NCBI RefSeq assembly: GCF_000241955.1
Contig: NC_016818.1
Coordinates: 1,984,001-2,048,000 of the forward strand
Direction: 5' to 3'
Source: Rahnella aquatilis CIP 78.65 = ATCC 33071
GTDB lineage: Bacteria > Pseudomonadota > Gammaproteobacteria > Enterobacterales > Enterobacteriaceae
DNA length: 64,000 nucleotides
The position numbers and the translations under genes were made by a program. Position 1 is the first letter of the stretch. Every line of letters begins with the position of its first letter. Positions 8,226 to 43,326 of the stretch are shown piece by piece. Under the pieces are notes generated by a model, which was given only the letters and a program-made list of their open reading frames with translations, made no database searches and was not told the origin of the DNA.

Positions 8226-8528
8226 TTAAAAACCTTTGAGATAATCCTGCGTGTCCTGTAACAAAGCATCAGCAATTTTGCCGGTATCCATCGTCAGTTT
8301 ACCGTCGCGGATAGCTTGTTTCAGTTCGTCGACACGTGCCGTGTTGATGTCCTGTGCACTTGACTGAGTCAGAGACGCTTGCGCTGAACTCAGGGTTACC
8401 GCCGTACCGCTGGTGGTGGTGCCAGAAACAGTGTCTTCTTTGCGCGCGTTCTGTACTGAAGCTTCAGACGGGTCGCGTTGCTGGATCGAGGTTAAAGGTG
8501 AAACACCTTGAGTACGATCGATAGCCAT
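8226..8528 (-). CDS. flgM: FlgM anti-sigma-28 factor
   Basis: FlgM holds FliA (sigma-28) inactive until the hook is finished and FlgM is exported. The protein is 100 aa. The N-terminal half is Ser/Thr/Gln-rich and disordered. The C-terminal FliA-binding part includes INTARVDELKQAIRDGKL and ends with ALLQDTQDYLKGF. A good ribosome site, GGAGAAG, sits 8 bp before the ATG. A sigma-28 promoter is visible about 90-115 bp upstream, so the gene feeds back on its own regulator. Confidence 0.96.
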   Translation of the reverse strand: MAIDRTQGVSPLTSIQQRDPSEASVQNARKEDTVSGTTTSGTAVTLSSAQASLTQSSAQDINTARVDELKQAIRDGKLTMDTGKIADALLQDTQDYLKGF

Positions 8529-8617
8529 AAATTTCTTCTCCAGTATGGGGACTCAGGGTTTTGGAAATCTCATGAAAACCCTAAAAATGCCGTCACGGGA
8601 CGACTCTGATACGTTTG

Positions 8618-8644
8618 TTATCGACATGTGGCGCAATAACTTTA
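8618..8644 (-). promoter_or_regulatory. Sigma-28 (FliA) promoter of flgMN
   Basis: Read on the minus strand, the sequence is TAAAGTTA-N11-GTCGATAA, one mismatch in each element from the FliA consensus TAAAGTTT-N11-GCCGATAA and with the exact spacing. It points at flgM. Confidence 0.85.
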
Positions 8645-8688
8645 ACCTTTATTGCAGCTTTTTGCAGAGCAACCGCTGCACTTTAGGA

Positions 8689-9414
8689 TTATATCGTCAC
8701 TGTCACAGACCCATCCGAGCCTACCGTCCCGTTCACAATTGCACCTGACGGCATTCTGATCCGCACTGATTCATTGGCTGCAGCATTGTTCATCGCCTTA
8801 CCGGCACTCGATACATTAAAACCACTGCCTGTTGCCTGAACCTGAACTTCCTGCCCCGCATGCACCATCCACGGCCGGCGCAGCATCGATAACGTTAACG
8901 GCTGGCCGATGCTGATGTTGCGCAGCGTAATACCATTAACAGCCTGTTTACTGTCAAGAATGGCCTTCGGCGGCAGCAGATCCAGCCGCCCGGTTTTCTG
9001 TTGCATATCTGTTTGCGCCAGGTGAGCGCCCGCCGGTACGTTCTTCGCCGCAACCCAGTAAGTTCCGCTGACCTGCACTTTGGTCTGAACGTAACTTTTC
9101 TGCCCGTTGCAGTTAACGGCCACAGAGACATTGCCCCAGGTGCGACTGTTCGGTGAAAGCATAAATTGTGGTGATAAGCACTGTGGCTGACGCGCCGCCG
9201 GGGTGTTCACGACCACGGTCACCTGCATCCCGCTGTCAGTATATTGCTGACGGAAGAATTGCTGGAGTTGCGAGGACAGCAGTGTATCGCTATTGGAGGA
9301 GGCCGGCACGCTTTTGACGGGCAAAGACTGCGCATAGCTCGTAGCACCAGACGTTACACCAATCATGATGCAGCCCAGCGCAATACCTAAACGACGGATT
9401 TTCAGCATGTTCAT
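8689..9414 (-). CDS. flgA: FlgA P-ring assembly chaperone
   Basis: FlgA is a periplasmic chaperone that helps FlgI assemble into the P ring. From ATG 9414 (AAAGGT site 10 bp upstream) the product is 241 aa with a signal peptide ending near TSYAQS. An in-frame ATG 90 bp further upstream would put 30 charged residues before the signal peptide and is rejected. The SAF-type C-terminal domain is visible: AAKNVPAGAHLAQTDMQ, then VNGITLRNISIGQPLT and the end IVNGTVGSDGSVTVTI. It is divergent from flgB across a 164-bp regulatory gap. Confidence 0.94.
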   Translation of the reverse strand: MNMLKIRRLGIALGCIMIGVTSGATSYAQSLPVKSVPASSNSDTLLSSQLQQFFRQQYTDSGMQVTVVVNTPAARQPQCLSPQFMLSPNSRTWGNVSVAVNCNGQKSYVQTKVQVSGTYWVAAKNVPAGAHLAQTDMQQKTGRLDLLPPKAILDSKQAVNGITLRNISIGQPLTLSMLRRPWMVHAGQEVQVQATGSGFNVSSAGKAMNNAAANESVRIRMPSGAIVNGTVGSDGSVTVTI

Positions 9415-9578
9415 ACGCAATTTACCTTTGTGCCAACCTACTACTGGCGACAAGTCTACGCTCACTTTGCAATTCCTAAAGGGACAAATAGCACCCGATT
9501 TCATGCTTATTCAGACGATAGCCAGTTGACACTCGCATTTATGCTGTCGACTCCAAAATCTCACTTTGCGGAGGGCGC
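9415..9578. promoter_or_regulatory. Divergent flgA / flgB control region
   Basis: The 164-bp gap must hold the class 2 promoters for flgA (minus) and flgBCDEFGHIJ (plus). AAATAGCACCCGATT at 9486-9500 partly matches an FlhDC half-site and resembles the string upstream of flhB. No sigma-28 promoter is seen, as expected for class 2. The flgB ribosome site GCGGAGGG is at 9567-9574. Confidence 0.45.
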
Positions 9579-9989
9579 ATGCTCGACAAATTGAACGCCG
9601 CACTACAGTTCCAACAGGAAGCGCTCAACCTGCGCGCCCAGCGGCAAGAAATTCTTTCAGCCAATATCGCTAACGCCGATACCCCGGGGTATCAGGCACG
9701 CGATATCGATTTTGCCAGTCAGTTGCAGAAGGTGATGGAGCAGGGGCGTGCGAGTGGCAGCGGCATCTCTTTGTCTCTGACGTCGGATCGTCATATTGCG
9801 GCGGCCAATGTACAGCCTGCTGATATGGATCTGATGTACCGGATCCCTGACCAGCCATCGGCAGATGGCAACACGGTCGATATGGATCGTGAACGTACCA
9901 ATTTTGCAGATAACAGCGTGCGCTATCAGACCGATTTGACCGTTCTCGGCGGACAAATCAAAGGGATGATGTCGGTGCTGCAAGGATAA
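9579..9989 (+). CDS. flgB: FlgB proximal rod protein
   Basis: FlgB is a structural subunit of the proximal rod of the flagellar basal body, exported without a signal peptide. The protein is 136 aa. The conserved N-terminal rod signature is present ([25 protein letters not shown]). The C-terminal helix contains [19 protein letters not shown]. First gene of the flgBCDEFGHIJ operon, with a strong ribosome site; flgC starts 6 bp after its stop. Confidence 0.97.
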
Positions 9990-9995
9990 TAGCCC

Positions 9996-10400
9996 ATGTC
10001 AATGCTTGGTATTTTTGATATCGCCGGTTCTGCGCTGGCCGCGCAGTCTCAGCGCCTGAACGTCAGCGCCAGTAACATGGCCAACGCCGACAGCGTCACC
10101 GGCCCGGATGGTAAGCCATATAAAGCGAAGCAGGTGGTTTTCCAGGTAGATGCGGCACCGGGTCAGGAAACCGGCGGCGTGAAAGTGGCGCAGGTTGTTG
10201 ATGACCCGGCACCGATGCGCATGGTGTATGAACCGGGTAATCCGATGGCGGATGCAAAGGGCTATGTGCAGATGCCAAACGTAGATGTGGTCAGCGAAAT
10301 GGTCAATACCATCTCCGCTTCCCGCAGTTATCAGGCTAACGTCGAAGTGCTTAACACCACCAAGTCGTTAATGATGAAAACCCTCACTCTGGGGCAATAG
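9996..10400 (+). CDS. flgC: FlgC proximal rod protein
   Basis: FlgC is a rod subunit built on top of FlgB. It is 134 aa, the usual length, with the N-terminal rod/hook motif [17 protein letters not shown] and the C-terminal helix [20 protein letters not shown] common to rod and hook proteins. It sits 6 bp after flgB and 11 bp before flgD. Confidence 0.97.
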
Positions 10401-10411
10401 CGGAGCGAATC

Positions 10412-11116
10412 ATGGCAATTACCACGTCGATTAATGACACCACTGATAACACGACGGTCGCCGGTACCCGTTCCGGTGGCTCGTCCACGACCGGCACCAG
10501 TTCTGCAGATGATCTGTCCAGCAGCTTCCTGACTCTGCTGGTCGCCCAGCTGAAAAACCAGGATCCCACCAATCCGATGGATAACAGTCAGCTCACCACC
10601 CAGCTCGCACAAATCAGCACCGTCAGCGGGATTGAAAAACTCAATACCACGCTGGGCAGCATTTCCGGGCAAATCACCAGTGGTTCGTCAGTGCAGGCAA
10701 GCTCACTGATCGGGCATGGCGTGATGGTGTCCGGCAGCGCAATTCTGGTCGGCAGTGAGACGGACGGCACGGTCAGCACCACGCCATTCGGATTTGAACT
10801 GGAAACGGCCTCCGATACCACCACCGCCACGGTCAGCGACGCCACCGGTAAAGTGGTGAAAACCATCACGCTGGGCGCCCAGACTGCCGGTGTGCACAGC
10901 TATAGCTGGGACGGTACACAGGACGATGGCACCAAAGCACCGGATGGCAGCTACACCTTCAGCATCAATGCCCTGAACAATGGTCAGCAAATGGTGGCAA
11001 CACCGCTGAACTATGCGCTGGTCAATGGTGTAACGACAGATTCAGCCGGGAATACTGCGTTGGATCTGGGCGTACGCGGAACCGCGAAAGTCGATTCCGT
11101 ACGCCAGATTTTGTAA
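10412..11116 (+). CDS. flgD: FlgD hook scaffolding protein
   Basis: FlgD caps the growing hook and is discarded after hook completion. The protein is 234 aa. After a Ser/Thr-rich flexible N-terminus comes the family core SSFLTLLVAQLKNQDPTNPM. The C-terminal part is the FlgD tudor/Ig-like region, with the GVHSYSWDGTQDDGTKAPDG motif near residues 163-182. Ribosome site GGAG lies 8 bp before the ATG. A 75-bp gap containing a short GC-rich repeat separates it from flgE. Confidence 0.96.
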   Translation: MAITTSINDTTDNTTVAGTRSGGSSTTGTSSADDLSSSFLTLLVAQLKNQDPTNPMDNSQLTTQLAQISTVSGIEKLNTTLGSISGQITSGSSVQASSLIGHGVMVSGSAILVGSETDGTVSTTPFGFELETASDTTTATVSDATGKVVKTITLGAQTAGVHSYSWDGTQDDGTKAPDGSYTFSINALNNGQQMVATPLNYALVNGVTTDSAGNTALDLGVRGTAKVDSVRQIL

Positions 11117-32721: not shown

Positions 32722-33504
32722 ATGTTTATCCGGCCACTTAAATTAACTCAGCACGTCGATGTGCAGGGTTCAGAAAAAGCGCCTGCGTTGGTACTTCTGC
32801 ATTCTTTGGGAACGGATTTGCACTTGTGGGATTTGCAAATGCCGCGTCTGACCGAACGTTATCGCGTTATTCGTCTGGATATCCGCGGGCATGGATTAAG
32901 CGCCGTCGATTCGCTGCGATTCTCCATGTCAGATTTGGCCGACGATGTCGTGGCGGCGCTGGATCATCTGCACATTAACGAATTCTATGTTGCCGGGGTT
33001 TCCATCGGCGGAACGATAGCGCAATGGATTGGATACAAGATACCCAAACGCGTACAGGGAATGATCATTGTTGATACGGCGCTGGTGAATGCCGCGCCAC
33101 CTTCGCTCTGGCGGGCACGGGCTGAAGATGTATTTCACCACGGCGTTGAACATCTCGAAATGGGGATTTTAAGCAAATGGGTGACGCCGAAATTTATCGA
33201 CACGCCCGATGCGGATGGTTTGAAGCAGATGCTGCGGCGGACAACGGTTGAAGCTTTCGCGGGTTGCTCGTATGCCATCGCCGATACCGATCTGACCGAT
33301 ATGGATATTCCGGGGGTAAGGGCTGTTGTGGTGAGAGGGAGTGAGGATCAGCTTACGCCTCAGGACTACGCACAACGTCTGGCTGAAAAGCGCAATGCCC
33401 AATTGCATATCATTCCGGGTGCGGCGCATTTACCTAATTTTGAGAAACCCGACGCGCTCACTGATGAAATCATCTCGTTCATTGAGAAGAAGGATTCGCA
33501 TTAA
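32722..33504 (+). CDS. Alpha/beta hydrolase, 3-oxoadipate enol-lactonase-like
   Basis: The 260-aa alpha/beta hydrolase has the size and order of motifs of PcaD-type lactonases. The oxyanion region LLHSLGTDLHLWDLQMPRLT, nucleophile elbow GVSIGGTIAQ, acid in VRGSEDQLTP and His in PGAAHLPNFEKP give a complete Ser-Asp-His triad. No other beta-ketoadipate pathway gene is in the window, so the substrate is open. A plain esterase or lactonase role is equally possible. It appears to be transcribed alone. Confidence 0.8.
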   Translation: MFIRPLKLTQHVDVQGSEKAPALVLLHSLGTDLHLWDLQMPRLTERYRVIRLDIRGHGLSAVDSLRFSMSDLADDVVAALDHLHINEFYVAGVSIGGTIAQWIGYKIPKRVQGMIIVDTALVNAAPPSLWRARAEDVFHHGVEHLEMGILSKWVTPKFIDTPDADGLKQMLRRTTVEAFAGCSYAIADTDLTDMDIPGVRAVVVRGSEDQLTPQDYAQRLAEKRNAQLHIIPGAAHLPNFEKPDALTDEIISFIEKKDSH

Positions 33505-33611
33505 CAACCAGAGCGGAAAGTCAGCATCTGTAAGGGCGCCTGAGCGCTGTTAACGGGCAAATTTTGCATGGCAGACGATAAAAAGTCTGGTGCACCTACG
33601 GAGTCATTCCT

Positions 33612-34175
33612 ATGAATCGTCGGTTATTTATTGGCGGAAGTCTGGGCTTATGCGCAGGTGCTGTAATGCTTCCTGCTGCGTTAAAAGGGGTAAGGGATCA
33701 GGGAAATGTTATTGAGATGCAACTGGCGAGTGGAACAGTGAGCATTCGCTTATTTCCCGATTTGGCTCCGGTGCATGTTGAACGCATAAAAGCGCTGGTG
33801 CAGGCCAGGTTTTATGATGGTATGCCGTTTAACCGGGTCATAAAAGGCTTTATGGCGCAAACCGGTGACCCGGTAAAAGAGACGGGTCTGGATTATATGC
33901 GGTTACCGACGCTGACCGCAGAATTTAACAGCCTGCCTTTTGAGCGAGGTACCCTCGGCATGGCCAGATCACGACATCCGCACAGTGCCAGCCATCAGTT
34001 TTTCATCACCTCCGCCAGGGCCGGTTTTTTAGATCACAATTACACGGCTTTCGGGAAGGTAACCCATGGCATGGAGTTAATTGACCAGCTCCGCGCCGGG
34101 TCTTCCGAAATAGGTACGGTGCTTAATCCGGATGTCATAAAAAGCATGCGATTAGCCACTATCCGGTCCGTTTAA
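33612..34175 (+). CDS. Exported cyclophilin-type peptidyl-prolyl isomerase
   Basis: The 187-aa protein has an N-terminal hydrophobic segment after NRR (residues 5-24, LFIGGSLGLCAGAVMLPAAL). This suits a signal peptide or anchor, so the protein should act in the periplasm. The cyclophilin active-site residues are present: FNRVIKGFMAQTGDP (catalytic Arg), SASHQFFIT and HNYTAFGKVTHGMELID. It is distinct from PpiA, being shorter and more divergent. The gene lies 107 bp after the hydrolase and 45 bp before a tautomerase-like gene. Confidence 0.87.
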   Translation: MNRRLFIGGSLGLCAGAVMLPAALKGVRDQGNVIEMQLASGTVSIRLFPDLAPVHVERIKALVQARFYDGMPFNRVIKGFMAQTGDPVKETGLDYMRLPTLTAEFNSLPFERGTLGMARSRHPHSASHQFFITSARAGFLDHNYTAFGKVTHGMELIDQLRAGSSEIGTVLNPDVIKSMRLATIRSV

Positions 34176-34220
34176 AACCACCCAACGGCAGAAATATCAA
34201 TTCAAAGGAGTGGATGTAAG

Positions 34221-34547
34221 ATGCCCAGCATGACTGTCTATACCTCTGCAAGCCATCGGTTAGATGCAGATTCTTTTGCGGAATTTTCAACGTCTTTAAC
34301 GCATCTCGCCATGGAGATCCTGAAGGCGAAAGAAAATAATATTCACATCAGTTACCTCACCGCAGAGATAGGTTTTGGCACGCCGGTTTACTTCGAAGCA
34401 AAACTCAGGCAGGAAGTGTTCCGGAGCCTGCCCGTGTTGGATGAATTCATGCATCAGGTTGATTTATTAATTAAGGAGAAGACAGGAGTAATAGCGAGGA
34501 TTCGCTGTTTCTCTTTTGAAGCGAGTCATATTTATGCAAAGAACTAA
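34221..34547 (+). CDS. Small tautomerase-like protein
   Basis: The 108-aa protein begins Met-Pro, which would expose the catalytic Pro1 of the tautomerase superfamily after Met removal. It shows the beta-alpha-beta pattern of the CHMI/MIF-type fold, loosely like 5-carboxymethyl-2-hydroxymuconate isomerase. Similarity is weak and I cannot name a substrate. Ribosome site AAAGGAG is good. The next gene starts 10 bp after its stop, so the two are probably expressed together. Confidence 0.5.
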   Translation: MPSMTVYTSASHRLDADSFAEFSTSLTHLAMEILKAKENNIHISYLTAEIGFGTPVYFEAKLRQEVFRSLPVLDEFMHQVDLLIKEKTGVIARIRCFSFEASHIYAKN

Positions 34548-34557
34548 GGAACGGATT

Positions 34558-35394
34558 ATGAATACCAATTTTCCAGCAAGAGATCTCGGCGATATAACGG
34601 TGACAGCCGTCAGTGATGGCTATCTGCAAGTTGACTTCGGGATGCTTTCAAATGTGGATGAAGAAGAGTGCAGGGAAATTCAGCGCAGTGCGCAAGTCAG
34701 TGAACTCAATGCCGTTCACATTAACACCTTCTTAGTCCGTCAGAAGGGCAAAAATATCCTTATTGACAGTGGGGCGGGAGGGGTTAAGGGATGGGGGGGC
34801 AGACTGGTTGCCAATCTGGACCTGCTGGGGATACATCCTGACAATATTGACGCTGTATTGCTCACACATGCGCATCCCGATCATATTGGTGGGTTATTAA
34901 ACGCAGAGGGTGAGGCTGTATTTGCTAATGCCGAACTGGTCATCAGCAGCGATGAATTTAATTATCTTGAAAACGACGAGAATTTCGCTGCTGTCAGTGA
35001 CCGCGTAAAAGGTAGTTTCCTTTTGGCGCGAAGTATATTTAAAAAGTATCAGAAAAATCTTCGTCTCATCGATAAAGGCGAGGTATTTCCGGGTGTTTTT
35101 GCGATCCCGCTGAAAGGTCACACACCGGGTCATACGGGGTACCGGGTTGAGGGCAGCAGAGACAGCCTGTTGATTTGGGGGGATATTGTTCATTTCCCGC
35201 ATATTCAACTGCTAAAACCAGATGTTGCCATTGCCTTTGATTATGATCCGCAGATGGCCGCAGAGACACGTTGCCGCATGCTGGAAATGGTGAGCTCAGA
35301 CAGAGTGCTTGTCGGCGGTATGCATTTTGGCGAGCAAGGATTCGGTTATATTGAAAAACGTCAATCCGGATACGGGATTGTCGATTTCCACTAG
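34558..35394 (+). CDS. Metallo-beta-lactamase-fold hydrolase
   Basis: From ATG 34558 (AAGGA 7 bp upstream) the product is 278 aa; an upstream in-frame ATG at 34516 overlaps the previous gene and is rejected. The dinuclear metal site is complete: HAHPDH, GHTPGH, WGDIVHFP and a final His in VGGMHF. The spacing and the C-terminal GMHFGEQGFG recall the methyl-parathion-hydrolase/lactonase branch of the superfamily. There is no signal peptide. The native substrate is unknown; a lactone or ester is plausible. Confidence 0.82.
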   Translation: MNTNFPARDLGDITVTAVSDGYLQVDFGMLSNVDEEECREIQRSAQVSELNAVHINTFLVRQKGKNILIDSGAGGVKGWGGRLVANLDLLGIHPDNIDAVLLTHAHPDHIGGLLNAEGEAVFANAELVISSDEFNYLENDENFAAVSDRVKGSFLLARSIFKKYQKNLRLIDKGEVFPGVFAIPLKGHTPGHTGYRVEGSRDSLLIWGDIVHFPHIQLLKPDVAIAFDYDPQMAAETRCRMLEMVSSDRVLVGGMHFGEQGFGYIEKRQSGYGIVDFH

Positions 35395-35588
35395 TTAAAA
35401 AGTATCATCAGAACATTCTGCTCTGAAAATAATGTATTTCCTGACCGGCAATGCAACGGGTAAACACTGGCAATTTGTCAGGCTCTGCTTAAGTTGCTTT
35501 GCCGTTATTAATTTTTTACTGTGTAACACTGTCGCTATGCTACTGAATAAATTCTCAGGTTTAAAATACTATCCTCAGGGGGAGCAAA

Positions 35589-36803
35589 ATGAATCCTGCA
35601 ATAAACAGAGAAATAAGTATTGATGCTATTCGCGCCGGCGTAAATGAACCGGATATCAGTCAGTCAATAATGACGGAGAAATTACCTTCACAGCCCAAAC
35701 TTCCATCACTTACCGGAAGCCGATTCTGGGCCGCCTTATTAGTCTTTTTATTTCATTCATCATTACCCAGCGATCTTGCTCCCTTTTCTGACCCTGCCAT
35801 ACAGCACATTTACACTGTTATCGTGGGTAAAGCGGGTTGGCTCGGCGTTTCCTATTTCTTCATACTCAGCGGATTCATTATGGTGTGGTCTTCGAGAGAT
35901 AACGACACCGTGGGAGATTTTTACCTGCGACGTTTTGCCAAGATTTATCCCACGCACTGCCTGACCTGGGCTATGGCGTTCGTTATTGGTGCCATGAGCC
36001 TATATCAATATAAACTCTGGTCATCAAACCTTTTGTTACTGAATACCTGGGTTGATGATGTTCATTATTTTTTTGTGGGTAACAGGCCCAGCTGGTCTCT
36101 TTGTATAGAAGCGATGTTTTATCTTTCTTTCCCTTTTCTTTTCAGAATAATGAAGACGATACCTAAAAAATTCGATTTACCCGGTTTAGCGTTGGTCACG
36201 GCGGCATCCTTGTTGGTTCAAATATACATTTATATTTGGGTTGAGCCGAACAAGATGATGGGGGCGTTTCCAATTTCGCAGCAACACTTTTGGATTTCGT
36301 ACATTTTTCCTCCGTCACGCATATTTGAGTTTCTTGCCGGTATGTTTGCCGCCCGGCTGTTGATGAACGGTCGAATGCTCGTGTTGACGAAAACGGCTTC
36401 GTTTGCCCTGCTTGCAGCCGCTTATATCGGGTCCATGTATATCCCCTACCAGTTCAGTATGAGCGTGGTTTTCATCATCCCCGTTTGTTTGTTAATCACT
36501 TCGATTGCGGGTGATGATTTAAAAAACCGCAATACACTGTTAAACACTAAAACGTCGGTGTGGTTAGGAGAGATATCCTATTCATTCTATATGGTTCATT
36601 TCTTAGTACTCTTTTATTTTTTGAATCTCACGGCAGGAAGAAAGTTTAGCTTGCCGGAAGGGATTGCGCTTATTGCCGTTGCGTTAGTTTTATCTGTTTC
36701 ATGTGCCTCTTTTTTATATAAATACTTTGAAGTGCCCATGATGAAGTTAATTCTGGAGAAATGCCGAATGAAAGCATTAGTCGTTCTGCGTAAATCTGCA
36801 TAA
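35589..36803 (+). CDS. Acyltransferase family 3 (OafA/YrhL-like) membrane protein
   Basis: The 404-aa integral membrane acyltransferase acetylates or acylates sugars or other exported molecules. A hydrophilic N-terminus of about 40 residues is followed by LTGSRFWAALLVFLFHSSLP, whose His, with GVSYFFILSGFIMVW and the RRFAKIYPTH segment, forms the family signature (R/H catalytic motif). About ten membrane helices follow. Ribosome site AGGGGGAG is strong. The gene is more AT-rich than the flagellar and katG regions, which suggests transfer. No polysaccharide genes are nearby, so the acceptor is unknown. Confidence 0.85.
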   Translation: MNPAINREISIDAIRAGVNEPDISQSIMTEKLPSQPKLPSLTGSRFWAALLVFLFHSSLPSDLAPFSDPAIQHIYTVIVGKAGWLGVSYFFILSGFIMVWSSRDNDTVGDFYLRRFAKIYPTHCLTWAMAFVIGAMSLYQYKLWSSNLLLLNTWVDDVHYFFVGNRPSWSLCIEAMFYLSFPFLFRIMKTIPKKFDLPGLALVTAASLLVQIYIYIWVEPNKMMGAFPISQQHFWISYIFPPSRIFEFLAGMFAARLLMNGRMLVLTKTASFALLAAAYIGSMYIPYQFSMSVVFIIPVCLLITSIAGDDLKNRNTLLNTKTSVWLGEISYSFYMVHFLVLFYFLNLTAGRKFSLPEGIALIAVALVLSVSCASFLYKYFEVPMMKLILEKCRMKALVVLRKSA

Positions 36804-36819
36804 TGTAAAAGGGCGTATT

Positions 36820-36901
36820 CATCCTGTCGTCGTCAGAACAGGATGAGGCGGGAGAGTCTGCTGATTGGGTGGGAGGGCATACGTCAGACATATGCTCTCC
36901 C
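36820..36901. terminator. Hairpins between the acyltransferase and LysR genes
   Basis: Between the convergent genes lie CATCCTGT/ACAGGATG (36820-36845) and a longer stem GGGAGGGCATA-N9-TATGCTCTCCC (36871-36901) with one G-T pair. Neither has a good T-tract; they may act together as a bidirectional transcription barrier. Confidence 0.4.
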
Positions 36902-36965
36902 ATCGGTATTTGATGAGTGACTTTCACTAAAAAGAGGGGTGAATAAACGTTTTTCTACGAATGCT

Positions 36966-37853
36966 TTAATAACCGATATTGTGCAACCGGGGATCCTGAA
37001 AAAGGGAGGTCATTATGCCTTTGAATTTAGTGCTATCCAAATAAGGTGAATCAGTACGATAAACAAGCTCTATCTTGAAGTCATTGAACTGACCGCTGAG
37101 TTCATGAATTTTTATCTTATTTTGTACTTCGCTGCTGATCGAACAACGTAAAACTAACGATACGCCTTTGCCGGCAGCAATGCTGGAGAACAGTACGGGA
37201 TAGGAGCCGCATTCTACCACCCGCTTTGGTGTGATATGTCCTTCATTAAAAAGAACATTATAGTTACGGGTTGTGGTTGCACATTTTTTGCTGCTGAGCA
37301 AAAAAACTTCGCCATCAAGGCTGGAGATGTCTTGAATGGTCGGGTAATTTTTCTCTGTAATAATCACCAGTTCGCTGGAGAGTAATATGGAGCGTGCGTG
37401 TTGAGTATTGGAAAAACCCGCGCCGATTATTACCGCATCAAATTCATTTTGGTCAAAGGCATTGAGCAAGCTTAGGGTATTTCCAACCGAAATATCTATG
37501 TTCCAGCCCAGATCATGACCTAAATCGATCAGCGAGCTGACAATATAGGGGGGTAAACATTCGATTATGCCAATACGGATATTCAGCTGGCTGCTTTTTG
37601 AGTGGTAAATGTTGTTTTTACAATCATCCGCGAGGTTCAATATTTTAAGCGCATAGTCATAAAGTATCTGGCCCTGCGCAGTCAGCGTGCACCCGTCGGT
37701 TTTACGATCTAAAAGGGTGACATCCAGATTATCCTCCAGGCTCCTGATTCGGTGGGAAATACTCGACTGCACACGATTTAGACGCTCGGCTGCCTGGGTT
37801 ATGTTCCCTGTCTCCACGACTGTCACGAATGCAAGAAGTTCACTTAGTTTCAT
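36966..37853 (-). CDS. LysR-family transcriptional regulator
   Basis: The start is set at ATG 37853, where GAGG stands 6 bp upstream; this gives 295 aa and puts the helix-turn-helix (KLSELLAFVTVVETGNITQA, then QSSISHRIRSLED) at the usual place. An upstream in-frame start at 37925 would add 24 unusual residues. The effector-binding domain follows. The gene is divergent from the PrpD-like/GAPDH-like/kinase-like/exporter unit across a 466-bp gap and is the obvious candidate regulator of it. Confidence 0.9.
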   Translation of the reverse strand: MKLSELLAFVTVVETGNITQAAERLNRVQSSISHRIRSLEDNLDVTLLDRKTDGCTLTAQGQILYDYALKILNLADDCKNNIYHSKSSQLNIRIGIIECLPPYIVSSLIDLGHDLGWNIDISVGNTLSLLNAFDQNEFDAVIIGAGFSNTQHARSILLSSELVIITEKNYPTIQDISSLDGEVFLLSSKKCATTTRNYNVLFNEGHITPKRVVECGSYPVLFSSIAAGKGVSLVLRCSISSEVQNKIKIHELSGQFNDFKIELVYRTDSPYLDSTKFKGIMTSLFQDPRLHNIGY

Positions 37854-38319
37854 TTGAGACCTCATGCTAAAAATTAGTTCACCGTCACAACAATTATTTA
37901 TATTCTGTATTAATGAGTTTGTCACTCTATTTCAGACCTTCGCTCCGGGACACGGAGACAGGCACCGTATGGCCACATCAGGAGGCGCGTCAGTATTATT
38001 ACCCTTCTGACAGACATTAATTCTGAATTGTGAATTTCAACAACAGACTGTGCTTATTTTCCTGTCTGTCTCTCATGCTCATTTCCGCCAACTGCCGGTC
38101 AACCTCAACAGGCATTTTATCAGGGCATCAATACTTTCGATGAGTGCCTCGATTTTATTCGCTGGTCTTTTATTGCCCTGCCCATTACGATTTTATGAGT
38201 GACGAAGAGTATTTCCATATAAATCAATTGGTTGTCTATTTCTATTTTCTGAATATATATATTACCGGTTCTCAATTACTTGTATTTCAAAAAATTACTT
38301 TTTGTTAATGGGGTGAAAT
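37854..38319. promoter_or_regulatory. Divergent control region of the LysR / prpD-like cluster
   Basis: This gap has no gene and is AT-rich next to the plus-strand operon. A candidate sigma-70 promoter for the operon is TTGTCT (38232-38237) with 16 bp to TATATA (38254-38259). The ribosome site of the first gene is GGGGTG at 38309-38314. A long leader is possible on either side. LysR binding sites cannot be assigned by eye. Confidence 0.4.
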
Positions 38320-39747
38320 ATGGCGCAAGCAGGATTTGATGAGGTAATGGTTGATCTGGTTGACTACGCCTATGAGCAGACAACCTTTGATAATGAAACG
38401 TTACGTCTGGCGCGTTTCTGCCTGCTGGACTCGATAGGTTGCGCGATTGCCGCTTCTGCCGACCATGACTGCCAAAGGCTGATGGGCAGCGCTCAGTTCA
38501 GCAAGAGCCAGGAGGGTGTCCCGGTTGTCGGTACCGGACTCAGACTGGGACCGATCGAGGCAGCCTTTCATTTAGGTTCGATGATCCGCTGGCTGGAGTT
38601 CAATGACACATGGCTTGCGCAAGAGTGGGGGCATCCGTCCGATAATCTGGGGGCTATTCTGGCCGCCGCAGCCTGGCACAGTCTGGCTGACGGTAATCAG
38701 CCGCCCGCTACGATGACAGCCGTCCTGAATACGATGATCCGTGCCTACGAGATCCACGGCGTGCTGTGTCTGTCGAACTGTTTTAATGCACTGGGTATCG
38801 ACCATGTGGTGTTGGTGAAAGTGGCTTCTGCGATTGCCTCAGCCCAACTGCTCGGCTTGTCAAAAGACCAGGCACTGAGCGCACTGTCCAACGCTATTAT
38901 CGACGGCCACTCTCTCAGAACCTACCGGCATGCGCCAAATGCAGGTACCCGTAAGTCATGGGCCGCCGGGGATGCCACGGCGCGCGGCCTGCAGTTGGCG
39001 CTGTTCGCGCAAACCGGCGAAATGGGTTATCCCACGGCGCTGACGGTCAGCCGGTGGGGATTCGATGACGCTGTTTTGAGAGGCAAACCCTTCAATTTGT
39101 CGCGCAACCTGTCAGATTTTGTCATTAAGAATATTTTGTTCAAAGTCCCCAATCCTGCTGAATACCACGCCCAGACTGCTGTAGAAGCGGCCATTAACCT
39201 TCGGGAGCGGATACTGGCAGCCGGGTTCACACCTGAGAGTATCGAGTATGTGCGGGTGGAAACAACCCGACCGGCGATGCAGATTATTGATAAATCAGGG
39301 CCGCTGAATAACGCCGCAGACCGCGATCACTGTCTCCAGTACATGGTTGCCGTGGGGCTTCAGACCGGAAATCTGACAATTAAGGATTTCCACGAACCGC
39401 TCGCCAGCGACCCTCAGCTGGATGCATTGCGATTGAAAATTACCTGCACTGAACGCCCTTCCTTTACAGAGAGCTACTACGACCCCGATAAGCGCGCCAT
39501 TCCTAATGCACTCTTTCTGAAATGTCATGGAATGACTGAAGAGCTCTCCGAAACTATTGAATATCCGCTGGGTCATGTTCGTCGCCGTGAAGAATGTTTC
39601 GGGGCGCTGCTGACGAAATTCCATCTGAATCTGTCGGACAGCCCGCTGCGTGACCGCTCCTCTATTCTGGCGGAAACCCTGATTTCAGAATCGAAGCTTG
39701 ATGCTATGTCCGTCACTGACCTCCTGAAAATGTTCGCCTGGGACTAG
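38320..39747 (+). CDS. MmgE/PrpD-family enzyme
   Basis: The 475-aa member of the MmgE/PrpD fold includes 2-methylcitrate dehydratase, cis-aconitate decarboxylase and iminodisuccinate epimerase among its relatives. Visible family features are RLARFCLLDSIGCAIAASAD, WLEFNDTWLAQEWGHPSDNLGAI (the FND.W and HPSD active-site stretch), LRTYRHAPNAGTRKSWAAGD and NPAEYHAQTAVEAA. There is no prpBC nor other methylcitrate gene nearby, so a housekeeping propionate role is unlikely. It is first in a four-gene operon and probably dehydrates, epimerises or decarboxylates a tricarboxylate-like intermediate. Confidence 0.85.
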   Translation: MAQAGFDEVMVDLVDYAYEQTTFDNETLRLARFCLLDSIGCAIAASADHDCQRLMGSAQFSKSQEGVPVVGTGLRLGPIEAAFHLGSMIRWLEFNDTWLAQEWGHPSDNLGAILAAAAWHSLADGNQPPATMTAVLNTMIRAYEIHGVLCLSNCFNALGIDHVVLVKVASAIASAQLLGLSKDQALSALSNAIIDGHSLRTYRHAPNAGTRKSWAAGDATARGLQLALFAQTGEMGYPTALTVSRWGFDDAVLRGKPFNLSRNLSDFVIKNILFKVPNPAEYHAQTAVEAAINLRERILAAGFTPESIEYVRVETTRPAMQIIDKSGPLNNAADRDHCLQYMVAVGLQTGNLTIKDFHEPLASDPQLDALRLKITCTERPSFTESYYDPDKRAIPNALFLKCHGMTEELSETIEYPLGHVRRREECFGALLTKFHLNLSDSPLRDRSSILAETLISESKLDAMSVTDLLKMFAWD

Positions 39748-39795
39748 GTCGCATCTAACACACTTACATATATTCATTTAGCGCGAGGTGATGAA

Positions 39796-40938
39796 GTGAA
39801 AAAAGCCATATTGGTAGGTTGCGGAGCGGAGATCGGCGCAAATTTGCTGATTCAGAATGATCCGGCGAAGGATGGTTTTGCGATTCAAACCGTCGTCACG
39901 AATCCTCCTTCTTTAGATAAACATTATCCTGAACTGCGTCCGATAGATGGCATCGTGGCCCGTCTGGCGATGGCGCTTCCCGGCGTACAGTCCCGTGTCA
40001 ACATTATCAATAGCGACACCCTGCAAATCGACGGGCGTGAGGTCCACTTTTTCTTTGGCGATCTTGCCAAAGGTCTTCCCCCGCAGACGGGGCGCTTCGA
40101 CATTGGTTTTATCGCTACCAGCAAGCTGGATATGGACAAGAACAGCCCCGTCGCGCGCAACATGCAGGAGCTCGCTGACGTGGTGCTGGGCGTTGCAGAG
40201 GCAAATGCGCTGCCGAGTATCTATGGTTGTCTGGAGGACCTGACCCGCGATGATATTGGCACTATCCAGCGTCAGGTGGTCGATTCTGGCCTGTATTGCC
40301 TCGGATCCTGTCAGACGAATGGCATGCATGCCTCACTGCGCGTATTAACGGAAGCGCTGAGAACCCTCAACTGCAACGCCTCGCATATTGTGTCGGTTGA
40401 AACCGATATCGTGCATCCGGATACACCTAACGGCGTACTCGGTACCCGATCCTTTGAAGGGCGCCTGCAGGATGCGCGCGACAACCTCCGTCCGAGCTTC
40501 TCACAAATAGCCATGAGTCAGGACAAGGTGATGCCCTGGGCACCGTTAGTGAATACCGTTTCATTACGCGCCCCCGTGCACGCACCCGGCTATCAGATTA
40601 ACCGTTTCATCGTAAAGGATGACGGCGCGTTAAACACCGGTGTCATCGAGGCGGCGATTGAGCGGGTGAGCGCGACGCATCCTCATGTTGTTAAAGCATC
40701 GCGGACGCCTTTAGGCAGCCGTGCGTATGCTTACGAGCGCAGATGCTCAACCATTCTCTCTGACCCGAACCACTTGCTCATTCTCCGGCCGGCCTATCTG
40801 GCGAGCCAGAGTTTGAGTGAGGTCATCATCCAGTCGTTTGTTAACAACACCGTTGGCTATAGCGCTGTTGTACGTGCTGTAGCACGTAGCATCGCGCTTG
40901 GCCTGCCAGTGGCAACTTTCCAGGGGATTGAAAAATGA
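39796..40938 (+). CDS. Divergent GAPDH-fold dehydrogenase
   Basis: The 380-aa protein starts at GTG 39796 (GAGGTG 5 bp upstream). It has an N-terminal Rossmann stretch (ILVGCGAEIGANLL) and GSCQTNGMH at 170-178, corresponding to the SCTTN active-site cysteine motif of glyceraldehyde-3-phosphate dehydrogenase (Cys172). FEGRLQDARDNLRPSFSQ then resembles the GAPDH R-A-R...NI-P region. It is about 45 residues longer than housekeeping GAPDH. The equivalent of the catalytic His is not obvious. It probably oxidises or reduces an aldehyde/acyl-phosphate. Its stop overlaps the next start by 4 bp (ATGA). Confidence 0.7.
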   Translation: MKKAILVGCGAEIGANLLIQNDPAKDGFAIQTVVTNPPSLDKHYPELRPIDGIVARLAMALPGVQSRVNIINSDTLQIDGREVHFFFGDLAKGLPPQTGRFDIGFIATSKLDMDKNSPVARNMQELADVVLGVAEANALPSIYGCLEDLTRDDIGTIQRQVVDSGLYCLGSCQTNGMHASLRVLTEALRTLNCNASHIVSVETDIVHPDTPNGVLGTRSFEGRLQDARDNLRPSFSQIAMSQDKVMPWAPLVNTVSLRAPVHAPGYQINRFIVKDDGALNTGVIEAAIERVSATHPHVVKASRTPLGSRAYAYERRCSTILSDPNHLLILRPAYLASQSLSEVIIQSFVNNTVGYSAVVRAVARSIALGLPVATFQGIEK

Positions 40939-41915
40939 CAAGTTCACATACAGTAGATTTTTTAAGCTCAGGCTTTGTCGTGAAGACGGCCATGTCCGAA
41001 GTGTTCAATAGCAAACTGAAAGCCGAAGTCGATCAGATACGCGCATTGCACGATATTTATCCGGAACTGATGGTTCCGGTTCTGCACGACGGGCTGGCTG
41101 CCGGGCGGCAATTCTATATTCTCGAGAAAATGGACTCTCTTCCTCTGTCCAAAATCGTATTTGACGACCAGCGGTCGCTTGCTGAACGCAGGATGATCGT
41201 GAGAAACGCACTGGAAAACGTACAGAAAGCGATCAGCCTGGAATCAGAGACCCCGTCGGCGATGGTCAACGATATGCCAGCCCGGTTACTGGAAGAGTGG
41301 GAAGGCACGCGTTTCGCACACGAGCTGTTTGAAAAACCTGTTCTGCTTAACGGCGCATCATTGAGTATGACTGCCAGGGAAGTCTTTGAAAAAGCACTGG
41401 AACTGGCCAGAACCGAAGAATTCAGGTCAGTGGAAAAAGCCCATTTCAATTTTCATTTTGGCAATGTGCTCTATAACGAGGAACATGCTCAGACCCGTTT
41501 CATTGACCCTGATTTCTCAGTGCGGGGACTCGATCCGCTTTTCGGTTTTTCCCGGTTTGCCTTTTCGTTTTGGCATGAACTGGCGGCAGAGGTGAAAGAC
41601 GCGGTCAAAATTGTACCGATGCCTGATGCACTGATGTTCGTGCTGGCGAAGTCTGACTACGGCAACATTCTCAGCGAGATCCCTGAATTAGGGGGTATTT
41701 CCGGCCTGCTGCCGCTGATGGGGGAAAGTATGCGCAACCGGTTCTATGTCCTCACGACCTATTGTTTCCTGAGAAGCATTCGTATTAACGGCAGTAAACA
41801 GCCCTGGAAAGTACCCCGGTCTCCGGTTTTCGCCAGCCCCGAAGAAGTGCTGATGCTTGGCCTGCTGGCCTACCTCGAAGGGCCGGATGCCGCGTCTGAA
41901 AGCCTGTGTGCGTAA
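40935..41915 (+). CDS. Kinase-fold (aminoglycoside phosphotransferase-like) protein with atypical active site
   Basis: This 326-aa protein resembles the APH/choline kinase superfamily. An N-lobe Lys/Glu pair may be K17 in FVVKT and E31. The catalytic-loop motif reads HFNFHFGNVLY (H170, N172, N177), where the family has H-x-D. The metal-binding aspartate follows in FIDPDFS (D191/D193). The replacement of the catalytic Asp by Asn is unusual and could mean an inactive or re-purposed kinase. The glycine-rich loop is not evident, so the N-lobe looks short. It is translationally coupled to the dehydrogenase. Confidence 0.6.
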   Translation: MTSSHTVDFLSSGFVVKTAMSEVFNSKLKAEVDQIRALHDIYPELMVPVLHDGLAAGRQFYILEKMDSLPLSKIVFDDQRSLAERRMIVRNALENVQKAISLESETPSAMVNDMPARLLEEWEGTRFAHELFEKPVLLNGASLSMTAREVFEKALELARTEEFRSVEKAHFNFHFGNVLYNEEHAQTRFIDPDFSVRGLDPLFGFSRFAFSFWHELAAEVKDAVKIVPMPDALMFVLAKSDYGNILSEIPELGGISGLLPLMGESMRNRFYVLTTYCFLRSIRINGSKQPWKVPRSPVFASPEEVLMLGLLAYLEGPDAASESLCA

Positions 41916-41943
41916 TTCCAATTCAATATAGGACGTTAAGGAT

Positions 41944-43326
41944 ATGTCGTTGGTCAGCAGCAGTACCTTAGAACAAGGATTTGAAGCCCCAAGGCGCTAT
42001 CTGGCGGCCGCGGCCATTTTAATTGGCGTGATTATGGCGGCGCTGGACAGTTCCATTGTCAATATCTCGTTGCCCTCTATTGCGGGGGCTTTACAGGTAG
42101 ATTCGGCATCTATCATCTGGGTGACCAACGGCTATCAGGTAGCCAGTGCTGCAACGATGTTGATCTGCGCATCGCTGGGGTCAAGGATAGGGGAGCGGCG
42201 CTTCTATACGGCTGGCATGGTGCTGTTTACGCTGGCATCGCTGGGTTGTAGCCTCTCCCCGAGCTTCGGCATGCTGGTTACCATGCGCATACTCCAGGGG
42301 GTGAGCTATGCCGTCATGATCAGCGTCGGACTGGGCCTTTACCGGGTTATCTTTCCGCCGAATGCGTTGGGCACTATTTTAGGGCTGAATGCGCTGGCGT
42401 TTGCGGTGGGTACGGCCATCGGCCCTGCGTTAGGCGGCCTGATCATCTCGTATCTTGACTGGCCCTGGTTGTTCTATATCAATCTTCCGTTGGGTGCGCT
42501 TGCCATTGTGTTCTCGCTGATTTCTTTGGGCGTGGATACTGAGAAGGAAAAAGGGTTCGACTGGGGAGGTGCCGTCACGTCAGCCGCTGCCCTGGGTCTG
42601 ATGGTCATCGCTGTCGATCAAATCGGGCGCTGGGACAGCCGGTTACTCCTGCTTTGTGGCGTTGCTTCGGTGGCGTTGCTTGCCATCTTTGTCAAAGCGC
42701 AGACGCGTTCAAAGAGCCCGTTGCTGCCCCTCGATATCTTTCATTCCCGGCGCTATACCTTCGCGGTGATCTCTTCCGTCTCAATGTTTGTGGCCCAGGG
42801 GATGGCGCTGGTCGGTTTGCCCTTTGTACTGCAACACGCCTATCACTATTCCGTGCTGGAGTCGGCGTTCATTTTTACACCGTGGCCGGTTGCCGTTGCA
42901 ATCTGCGCCCCGGTGGCGGGCAGGCTGTCCAATCGTTTAAATCCTACTCAGATATCGACAGTCGGCGTGGTGATTTTCTGCCTGGGCTTAGGGTCTCTGG
43001 CGCTGTTGCCGCAAATGGCGACGGTGAATGATTTTCTCTGGCGCGTGGCGGTTTGCGGGATTGGCTACGGGCTGTTCCTGCCGCCGAACAATAAAGAGAT
43101 GTTTTCAAATGTGGCCGCGAACCGGACGGTCACGGCCTCGGGGGTCTTGTCGACCGCCAGGACCGCGGGGCAATCCATTGGCGCGGCGCTGGTCGCGATG
43201 GTTATTGCACTGTTGAACGGACTGACGGGGGAGGCGGGGGCACAGTTCGCCGTCTATGTCTTCGGGCTGGCCTGTCTTATCTCTGCACTGTCGTCGGTCT
43301 CAAGTATGCTACGCCTGCACCGGTAA
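41944..43326 (+). CDS. MFS transporter, DHA2 drug/metabolite exporter family
   Basis: The 460-aa protein has a 14-helix DHA2-like pattern, like EmrB or SmvA. TM1 carries the LDSSIVNISLPSIAGAL motif of DHA2 proteins, motif A is GSRIGERRFYTAG, and the antiporter motif C in TM5 is GTAIGPALGG. It is the last gene of the LysR-controlled unit, 28 bp after the kinase-like gene, and a bidirectional terminator follows. In context it may export the product of the three enzymes or give self-protection. The substrate is unknown. Confidence 0.9.
   Translation: MSLVSSSTLEQGFEAPRRYLAAAAILIGVIMAALDSSIVNISLPSIAGALQVDSASIIWVTNGYQVASAATMLICASLGSRIGERRFYTAGMVLFTLASLGCSLSPSFGMLVTMRILQGVSYAVMISVGLGLYRVIFPPNALGTILGLNALAFAVGTAIGPALGGLIISYLDWPWLFYINLPLGALAIVFSLISLGVDTEKEKGFDWGGAVTSAAALGLMVIAVDQIGRWDSRLLLLCGVASVALLAIFVKAQTRSKSPLLPLDIFHSRRYTFAVISSVSMFVAQGMALVGLPFVLQHAYHYSVLESAFIFTPWPVAVAICAPVAGRLSNRLNPTQISTVGVVIFCLGLGSLALLPQMATVNDFLWRVAVCGIGYGLFLPPNNKEMFSNVAANRTVTASGVLSTARTAGQSIGAALVAMVIALLNGLTGEAGAQFAVYVFGLACLISALSSVSSMLRLHR

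Follow-up and report, generated by a model that had tools for sequence, protein, structure and literature searches.

A conserved cluster of PrpD-type, GAPDH-fold and kinase-fold genes in Rahnella aquatilis as a candidate operon for a small secreted metabolite

What could a dehydratase, an oxidoreductase, a kinase-like protein and an efflux pump make together? The question is raised by four adjacent genes in a 64,000-nucleotide stretch of the 5.45 Mb genome of Rahnella aquatilis CIP 78.65 = ATCC 33071 (NC_016818.1, positions 1,984,001 to 2,048,000; hereafter the window). They encode a PrpD paralogue of the aconitate/methylcitrate dehydratase type with a D93E exchange (38320..39747, + strand), a GAPDH-fold oxidoreductase of 380 residues with Cys172 and His207 (39796..40938, +), an APH-fold kinase-like protein in which HxN replaces HxD (40935..41915, +) and a DHA2-family MFS exporter (41944..43326, +; TIGR00711, 255 bits against a cut-off of 230). 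The genes are spaced by 48, -4 and 28 bp and lie divergent to a gene for a LysR-type regulator (36966..37925, -; family match). An initial annotation, made from the letters of the window alone, had described these four tightly spaced genes with their DHA2 exporter and LysR regulator, and we confirmed its coordinates, gaps and exporter assignment. Its outline of the cluster was right for LysR and the core and missed five further genes beyond LysR: comparison of the window proteins with 11 loci bearing a relative of the GAPDH-like protein showed the core to be part of a conserved block at 32722-43326. We tentatively propose, with somewhat less than even confidence, that this is a horizontally spread operon making a small secreted metabolite, in which a PrpD reaction, activation of a carboxylate and reduction of the acyl phosphate would lead to an exported semialdehyde.

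The comparison of gene neighbourhoods, on which the initial annotation had staked its grouping, found the four genes conserved together. The order PrpD, GAPDH-like, kinase-like, exporter recurs in 12 gamma- and alphaproteobacterial loci, the window included, and a 13th locus holds the first three. Genes for a PcaD-like hydrolase, a cyclophilin, a putative tautomerase, a metallo-beta-lactamase (MBL)-fold hydrolase, an acyltransferase and LysR stand beside the core in 8/8 complete enterobacterial copies, that is, in the window and in Serratia inhibens, R. rivi, Erwinia, Kosakonia, Xenorhabdus, Cedecea and another Rahnella (L025). The accessory genes also accompany the core in the alphaproteobacterium Telmatospirillum, with no LysR match within the stretch compared. 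In R. perminowiae (L004) the contig ends just before prpD (147 bp). Marinomonas (L009, with LysR) and Pseudomonas sp. SDI (L011) carry the four-gene core; the five other accessory genes were not found within 7.5-8.5 kb on each side of it. The Microvirga locus (L012) has the PrpD, GAPDH-like and kinase-like genes. Directly before its prpD (Microvirga sp. KLBC 81, 384-1523) lies an amidinotransferase gene, the best match of which is inosamine-phosphate amidinotransferase (E 1.3e-134).

Occurrence of the cluster is sporadic, and horizontal spread therefore appears likely. Sampling of the order (394 genomes) and of the phylum (398 genomes) returned the host genome only, and 5 of 59 genomes of relatives were positive, counting the host and one divergent type. 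The GAPDH-like family was found in 3/297 genomes of the order of Telmatospirillum (Telmatospirillum and two others) and in 1/385 of its class, namely Telmatospirillum itself. A megablast-level search of E. coli genomes gave no match, and plasmid searches with two distant members gave Pantoea alhagi as the only one. Among the matches listed, protein relatives also came from Burkholderia, Klebsiella, Enterobacter, Salmonella, Pantoea, Gilliamella, Rubrivivax and Acidithiobacillus, and the wider GAPDH-like family reaches Streptomyces, Omnitrophica and others. Across 11 loci (near-copies counted, L012 and L025 excluded) the pairwise distances of the four core proteins correlate closely (r 0.97-0.995). 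Six flanking proteins of the window had matches only in L004 and L025 among 17 loci (two also weakly in L063), and a flanking open reading frame (ORF) of 110 residues matched L003 as well. The locus thus shows the pattern of a secreted-metabolite cluster: co-localised conserved enzymes with an exporter, which adjoins the core in 12 of 13 loci, and a sporadic distribution.

The GAPDH-like protein matched no GAPDH family model in Pfam or NCBIfam (0/55 members). Its predicted structure (predicted local distance difference test, pLDDT, 90; predicted template modelling score 0.89; residues 212-231 mostly <50) has the GAPDH fold, and its best structural matches are GAPDHs, at 15-22% identity to the structures listed. 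A profile alignment to GAPDH gave E 0.0026 from residue 193 onward, and hhalign a probability of 97.5 throughout. In profile alignments C172, H207, T210, S236, R258 and N351 fall on GAPDH positions, and these residues and S171 are invariant in 55/55 aligned proteins (the window protein and 54 of the best 120 of 181 matches, near-copies and fragments dropped). We take C172 and H207 to be the catalytic Cys and His, S171, T210, S236 and R258 to form the anion site, and N351 to be the nicotinamide-site Asn. Among the best 120 of 181 matches the motif SCQ is present in 120, HPDT in 119 and R(P/A)(S/G)FSQ in 118; HPDT is missing from P0065, and the FSQ motif from P0065 and P0103. P0065, a database protein of 309 residues, has partial matches to the GAPDH-like as well as the kinase-like protein, and is a fusion, deletion or assembly product. 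These features suggest a new branch of the GAPDH fold with catalytic Cys/His and anion site, and we predict it to be an enzyme. Fold and active site would also suit a drug-resistant GAPDH copy that protects the cell from a cluster-made inhibitor of GAPDH. As the protein is ~17% identical to the host genome's own GAPDH-type proteins (three matches, two over the cut-off) and, in unrelated neighbourhoods too, its gene sits with the kinase-like one, we consider such a self-resistance copy very improbable.

The kinase-like protein has a predicted APH/maltokinase structure (pLDDT 93) that falls within the APH/choline-kinase fold. Against the Pfam APH model the window protein scored 12.4 bits, under the gathering cut-off of 23.2, and 20 of 33 relatives matched it at E<=1 (best 5.3e-7). 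K17, E31, N177, D191 and D193, presumably the residues binding ATP and metal, are invariant in 33/33 aligned proteins (the window protein and 32 of 43 matches, near-copies and fragments dropped). The catalytic loop reads HxN in 43/43 database matches and HxD in 0/43, DPD is present in 43/43, and a weak profile match (E 0.15) places the Asn on the Asp of a kinase domain. A carboxylate acceptor is already deprotonated and requires no general base; the loss of the Asp therefore fits carboxylate activation. The initial annotation had paired a kinase with a GAPDH-fold enzyme, which folds, motifs and adjacency bear out, and had named a carboxylate or a hydroxyl group as the target; as far as sequence can tell, the invariant Asp-to-Asn change favours the former and disfavours the latter.

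Two other reactions of the kinase-like protein were weighed. It could phosphorylate a hydroxyl group (of a sugar-like compound or hydroxy acid), with the GAPDH-like enzyme acting on the phosphorylated aldehyde, for which the APH fold itself offers precedent; ordinary APH kinases, to our knowledge, retain the Asp, and the Asn found in every match speaks against it. Residual activity is retained by ErbB3, which has Asn at the Asp site, according to PMC3281104, and one pair outside the cluster lies among nucleotide-sugar-type genes (L034, below). On balance this reading seems rather unlikely. The protein could instead transfer adenosine monophosphate (AMP) to the carboxylate, the GAPDH-like enzyme then reducing an acyl adenylate. 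SidJ is described in PMC6858067 as lacking kinase activity and auto-AMPylating, with AMP transfer to glutamate proposed and AMPylation by SelO cited; SELO lacks the catalytic Asp according to PMC3281104. YrdC, of an adenylate-forming family, takes the kinase's place in a second type of cluster (below). As the anion-site residues of the GAPDH-like protein are invariant, an acyl phosphate fits better than an acyl adenylate, and we regard AMP transfer as distinctly unlikely.

Going beyond the initial annotation, we found that the GAPDH-like/kinase-like pair exists outside the cluster as well. The kinase-like gene was adjacent in 14 of 16 GAPDH-like gene loci scanned, and the remaining 2 had YrdC. 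Two distant alphaproteobacteria have a GAPDH-like gene next to one for an HxN kinase (L034, 8303-10611; L035, ~8235-10525), with GAPDH-like proteins at 36-38% identity; the L034 pair sits amid cytidylyltransferase, HAD, Gfo/Idh, radical-SAM and SDR genes, a nucleotide-sugar-type setting. The second cluster type, seen on a Pantoea alhagi plasmid (L016, 5625-14999) and in another Rahnella (L024, 3757-11600), comprises genes for LysR, an EamA-type transporter, a PcaD-like hydrolase, a helix-turn-helix protein, YrdC, a divergent GAPDH-like protein, a PEP-utilizers_C protein and a protein of 172-174 residues. Here the GAPDH-like gene follows YrdC and precedes the PEP-utilizers_C gene, and 8/8 L024 proteins compared have counterparts in L016 (46-84% identical). 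What these settings share may be the pairing of a GAPDH-like reductase with a neighbouring carboxylate-activating enzyme.

The likely substrate class follows from PrpD. Its tricarboxylate type, supposed by the initial annotation, is supported by whole-length homology to E. coli 2-methylcitrate dehydratase (1szq, ~50% identity) and by a score of 521 bits against the curated prpD cut-off of 458. Having passed this cut-off, the protein could be an ordinary methylcitrate-cycle PrpD with unrelated neighbours. It is the sole PrpD match in the host genome, where no prpB exceeded the cut-off (best 73.8 vs 354.4 bits). A single PrpD exceeds the cut-off in seven of nine other cluster genomes as well, Microvirga having three further weak matches; in Marinomonas and Xenorhabdus a second PrpD outscores the cluster copy. 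In a tree, 12 cluster and 20 canonical PrpDs fall on opposite sides of a 100/99 branch; the tree has no outgroup, L011 and L012 form long branches, and the midpoint root as drawn places L012 on the canonical side. The two groups are distinguished at seven positions. Position 93 is E in 12/12 cluster and D in 20/20 canonical proteins, H143Y, V158L, A223G and F282Y are also fixed, and A150C and Y357F have one canonical exception each. Counted along the alignment, residue 93 falls on Asp93 of human aconitate decarboxylase. This Asp bonds Lys272, named as catalytically relevant together with His103 and His159 in a preprint (PMC12259180; see also PMC11814083). An exchange at such a catalysis-linked site suggests a change in the substrate or in how it is positioned, with the reaction type probably retained. 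Given the tree, D93E, the lack of a prpB over the cut-off and the synteny across classes, a methylcitrate-cycle role is hardly credible. An itaconate-type decarboxylase was also rejected, the match to cis-aconitate decarboxylase having E 6e-12 vs 6e-149 for PrpD.

Combining these parts, we arrive at the following tentative route. Starting probably from citrate or a similar acid, PrpD would form an unsaturated tricarboxylate of the aconitate type, the APH-fold enzyme would activate one of its carboxylates as an acyl phosphate, and the GAPDH-fold enzyme would reduce this to the aldehyde via a Cys thioester. The aconitate-type semialdehyde may close spontaneously, perhaps to a hydroxybutenolide-like electrophile, and the product would be exported by the DHA2 pump; it might be the secreted antimetabolite or signal that the initial annotation had in mind. 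Protection of the producer or tailoring of the product would fall to the two lactonases (PcaD-like and MBL-type) and the small putative tautomerase, perhaps also to the acyltransferase and the cyclophilin, and LysR would control the operon. A wider proposal, to which we give less credence still, is a new route of carboxylic-acid reduction, in which an APH-fold kinase with Asn for the base and a new GAPDH branch serve several kinds of cluster and here form a mobile three-enzyme path from citrate to a secreted aldehyde or butenolide, with self-protection by lactonases.

The genes on the far side of LysR all lie on the + strand. The PcaD-like alpha/beta hydrolase (3-oxoadipate enol-lactonase-type; 32722..33504) matched Abhydrolase_1 and, at 214 bits, TIGR02427 under its cut-off of 255.9; it has a GVSIG motif at residue 92, and counterparts 64-91% identical to it occur in 8 further cluster loci. 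The same 8 loci hold the cyclophilin-type prolyl isomerase (33612..34175; Pro_isomerase E 7.9e-37) at 50-82% identity, and by eye the window protein appears to have an N-terminal export signal. The putative tautomerase of 108 residues (34221..34547) gave no family match in Pfam, NCBIfam and PDB searches, and is named from its size and the Pro after its start Met, invariant in 7/7 aligned proteins (the start codon of L010 having been picked by us). The lactonase-like MBL-fold hydrolase (AidB-like; 34558..35394) matched Lactamase_B and, at 214 bits, NF047979 under its cut-off of 360, and contains HAHPDH; its ORF is listed from TTG 34516, and ATG 34558 is the likely start. The membrane acyltransferase (35589..36803) matched Acyl_transf_3 (PF01757, E 1.1e-27). 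For LysR, ORFs of 295-299 residues in four relatives suggest a true start ~20 codons inside the ORF.

Between LysR and prpD lies a conserved element, TTTCGATGAGTGCCTCGATTTTATTC (38135..38160, no strand assigned). Its 23-base form, with two positions free, occurs exactly upstream of prpD in the window and in L002, L003, L005-L008 and L025, with an expected count of 0 in shuffles. The element is thus kept in 7/7 other complete enterobacterial loci, including that of Erwinia, in which LysR has moved. It was not found, with <=3 mismatches allowed, in L004 (147 bp available before prpD), L009-L012 and L015. It is likely a binding site for the regulator.

A divergent LysR and PcaD-like and AidB-like hydrolases would also be expected of a catabolic operon. 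There, lactonases would open an environmental lactone or tricarboxylate, followed by tautomerisation, dehydration by PrpD and oxidation by the GAPDH-like enzyme, and the kinase-like protein would regain ATP or phosphorylate an intermediate; GAPDH chemistry is reversible. The transporter beside the core is, however, of the DHA2 efflux type, lactonases were not seen near two of the core loci, and family scans found no coenzyme A ligase, thiolase or aldolase family in the conserved set. Catabolism is therefore an unlikely alternative to the synthesis of a secreted semialdehyde.

Several points weigh against our proposal. LysR, enol-lactonase, putative tautomerase and lactonase together look catabolic too, and the name of the tautomerase rests on one residue and size. 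The absence of lactonase genes from the stretches searched around the L009 and L011 cores means that protection by lactonases is not universal. The cluster PrpD passes the ordinary prpD cut-offs. Known APH-fold enzymes act on hydroxyl or amine acceptors, and an Asn in this position is also compatible with a pseudokinase, an AMP-transferase or a kinase of low activity. Where the pair occurs in other gene contexts, aconitate is probably not its substrate.

The G+C content of the window is 45.8% for the LysR-side genes (32722-37925) and 54.5% for the core (38320-43326). In 7/7 enterobacterial loci measured the LysR-side genes lie 6.4-9.1 points below the core; in Telmatospirillum both parts have 55%. 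In Kosakonia and Xenorhabdus the core, and not the LysR side, deviates from the surrounding G+C. The difference hints that the cluster was built of two modules. Separate pieces were also observed. Klebsiella aerogenes NCTC10006 (L015, 7049-10387) has a LysR gene, an exporter gene at 85% identity and an MBL gene annotated as two pieces; PrpD, GAPDH-like and kinase-like matches were not found in this stretch. We rejected it as a resistance-only version of the cluster, decay being equally likely with the MBL gene in two pieces. In Burkholderia stagnalis (L014, 8001-9353) an exporter gene 71% identical stands with no other cluster genes within the stretch compared.

The initial annotation knew of no characterised pathway with this gene set, and among the titles and abstract starts listed from the open-licence literature (subscription papers being outside the scope) we found no matching operon and no description of the cluster or its chemistry. 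If our proposal is true, the few kinase/reductase pairs known to convert carboxylates to aldehydes gain one that uses a different kinase fold; a GAPDH branch beyond the Pfam and NCBIfam models receives a role, as does a kinase branch barely reached by Pfam APH; and diverse proteobacteria are predicted to make a new small secreted compound from central metabolism in three steps.

How does the cluster compare with known systems? Alkylcitrate pathways also use an enzyme of the methylcitrate-dehydratase type, and we know of no kinase/GAPDH-like pair in them or in the other fungal pathways considered here. These fungal pathways, to itaconate/2-hydroxyparaconate and to maleidrides/alkylcitrates, likewise give citrate-derived acids or lactones (PMC9875883, PMC6162547, PMC7338620). 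The cluster PrpD shares ~50% identity with the E. coli enzyme but stands apart in the tree, with D93E and six other changes, in a genome without prpB over the cut-off. The GAPDH-like protein has the fold, Cys/His and anion site of GAPDH, and differs in its low identity, its 380 residues and the lack of a family match. Its partner shares with APH-like kinases the fold, Lys, Glu, Asn and Asp-x-Asp, and differs in HxN with DPD and in its small-molecule operon context; with the SidJ/SelO pseudokinases the likeness is one of feature, the loss of the Asp being shared with SelO. Closest in logic are the pairs of carboxylate kinase and acyl-phosphate reductase, LysC/Asd, ArgB/ArgC and ProB/ProA, and also PGK/GAPDH. 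Like LysC/Asd-type pairs, the cluster would join a phosphate-transferring enzyme to a Cys-dependent reductase, here encoded by adjacent genes. In contrast to them, its kinase-like partner has the APH fold without the catalytic Asp and its reductase is a GAPDH branch outside the Pfam and NCBIfam models; because of the kinase fold and the missing base, it belongs to none of the known pairs.

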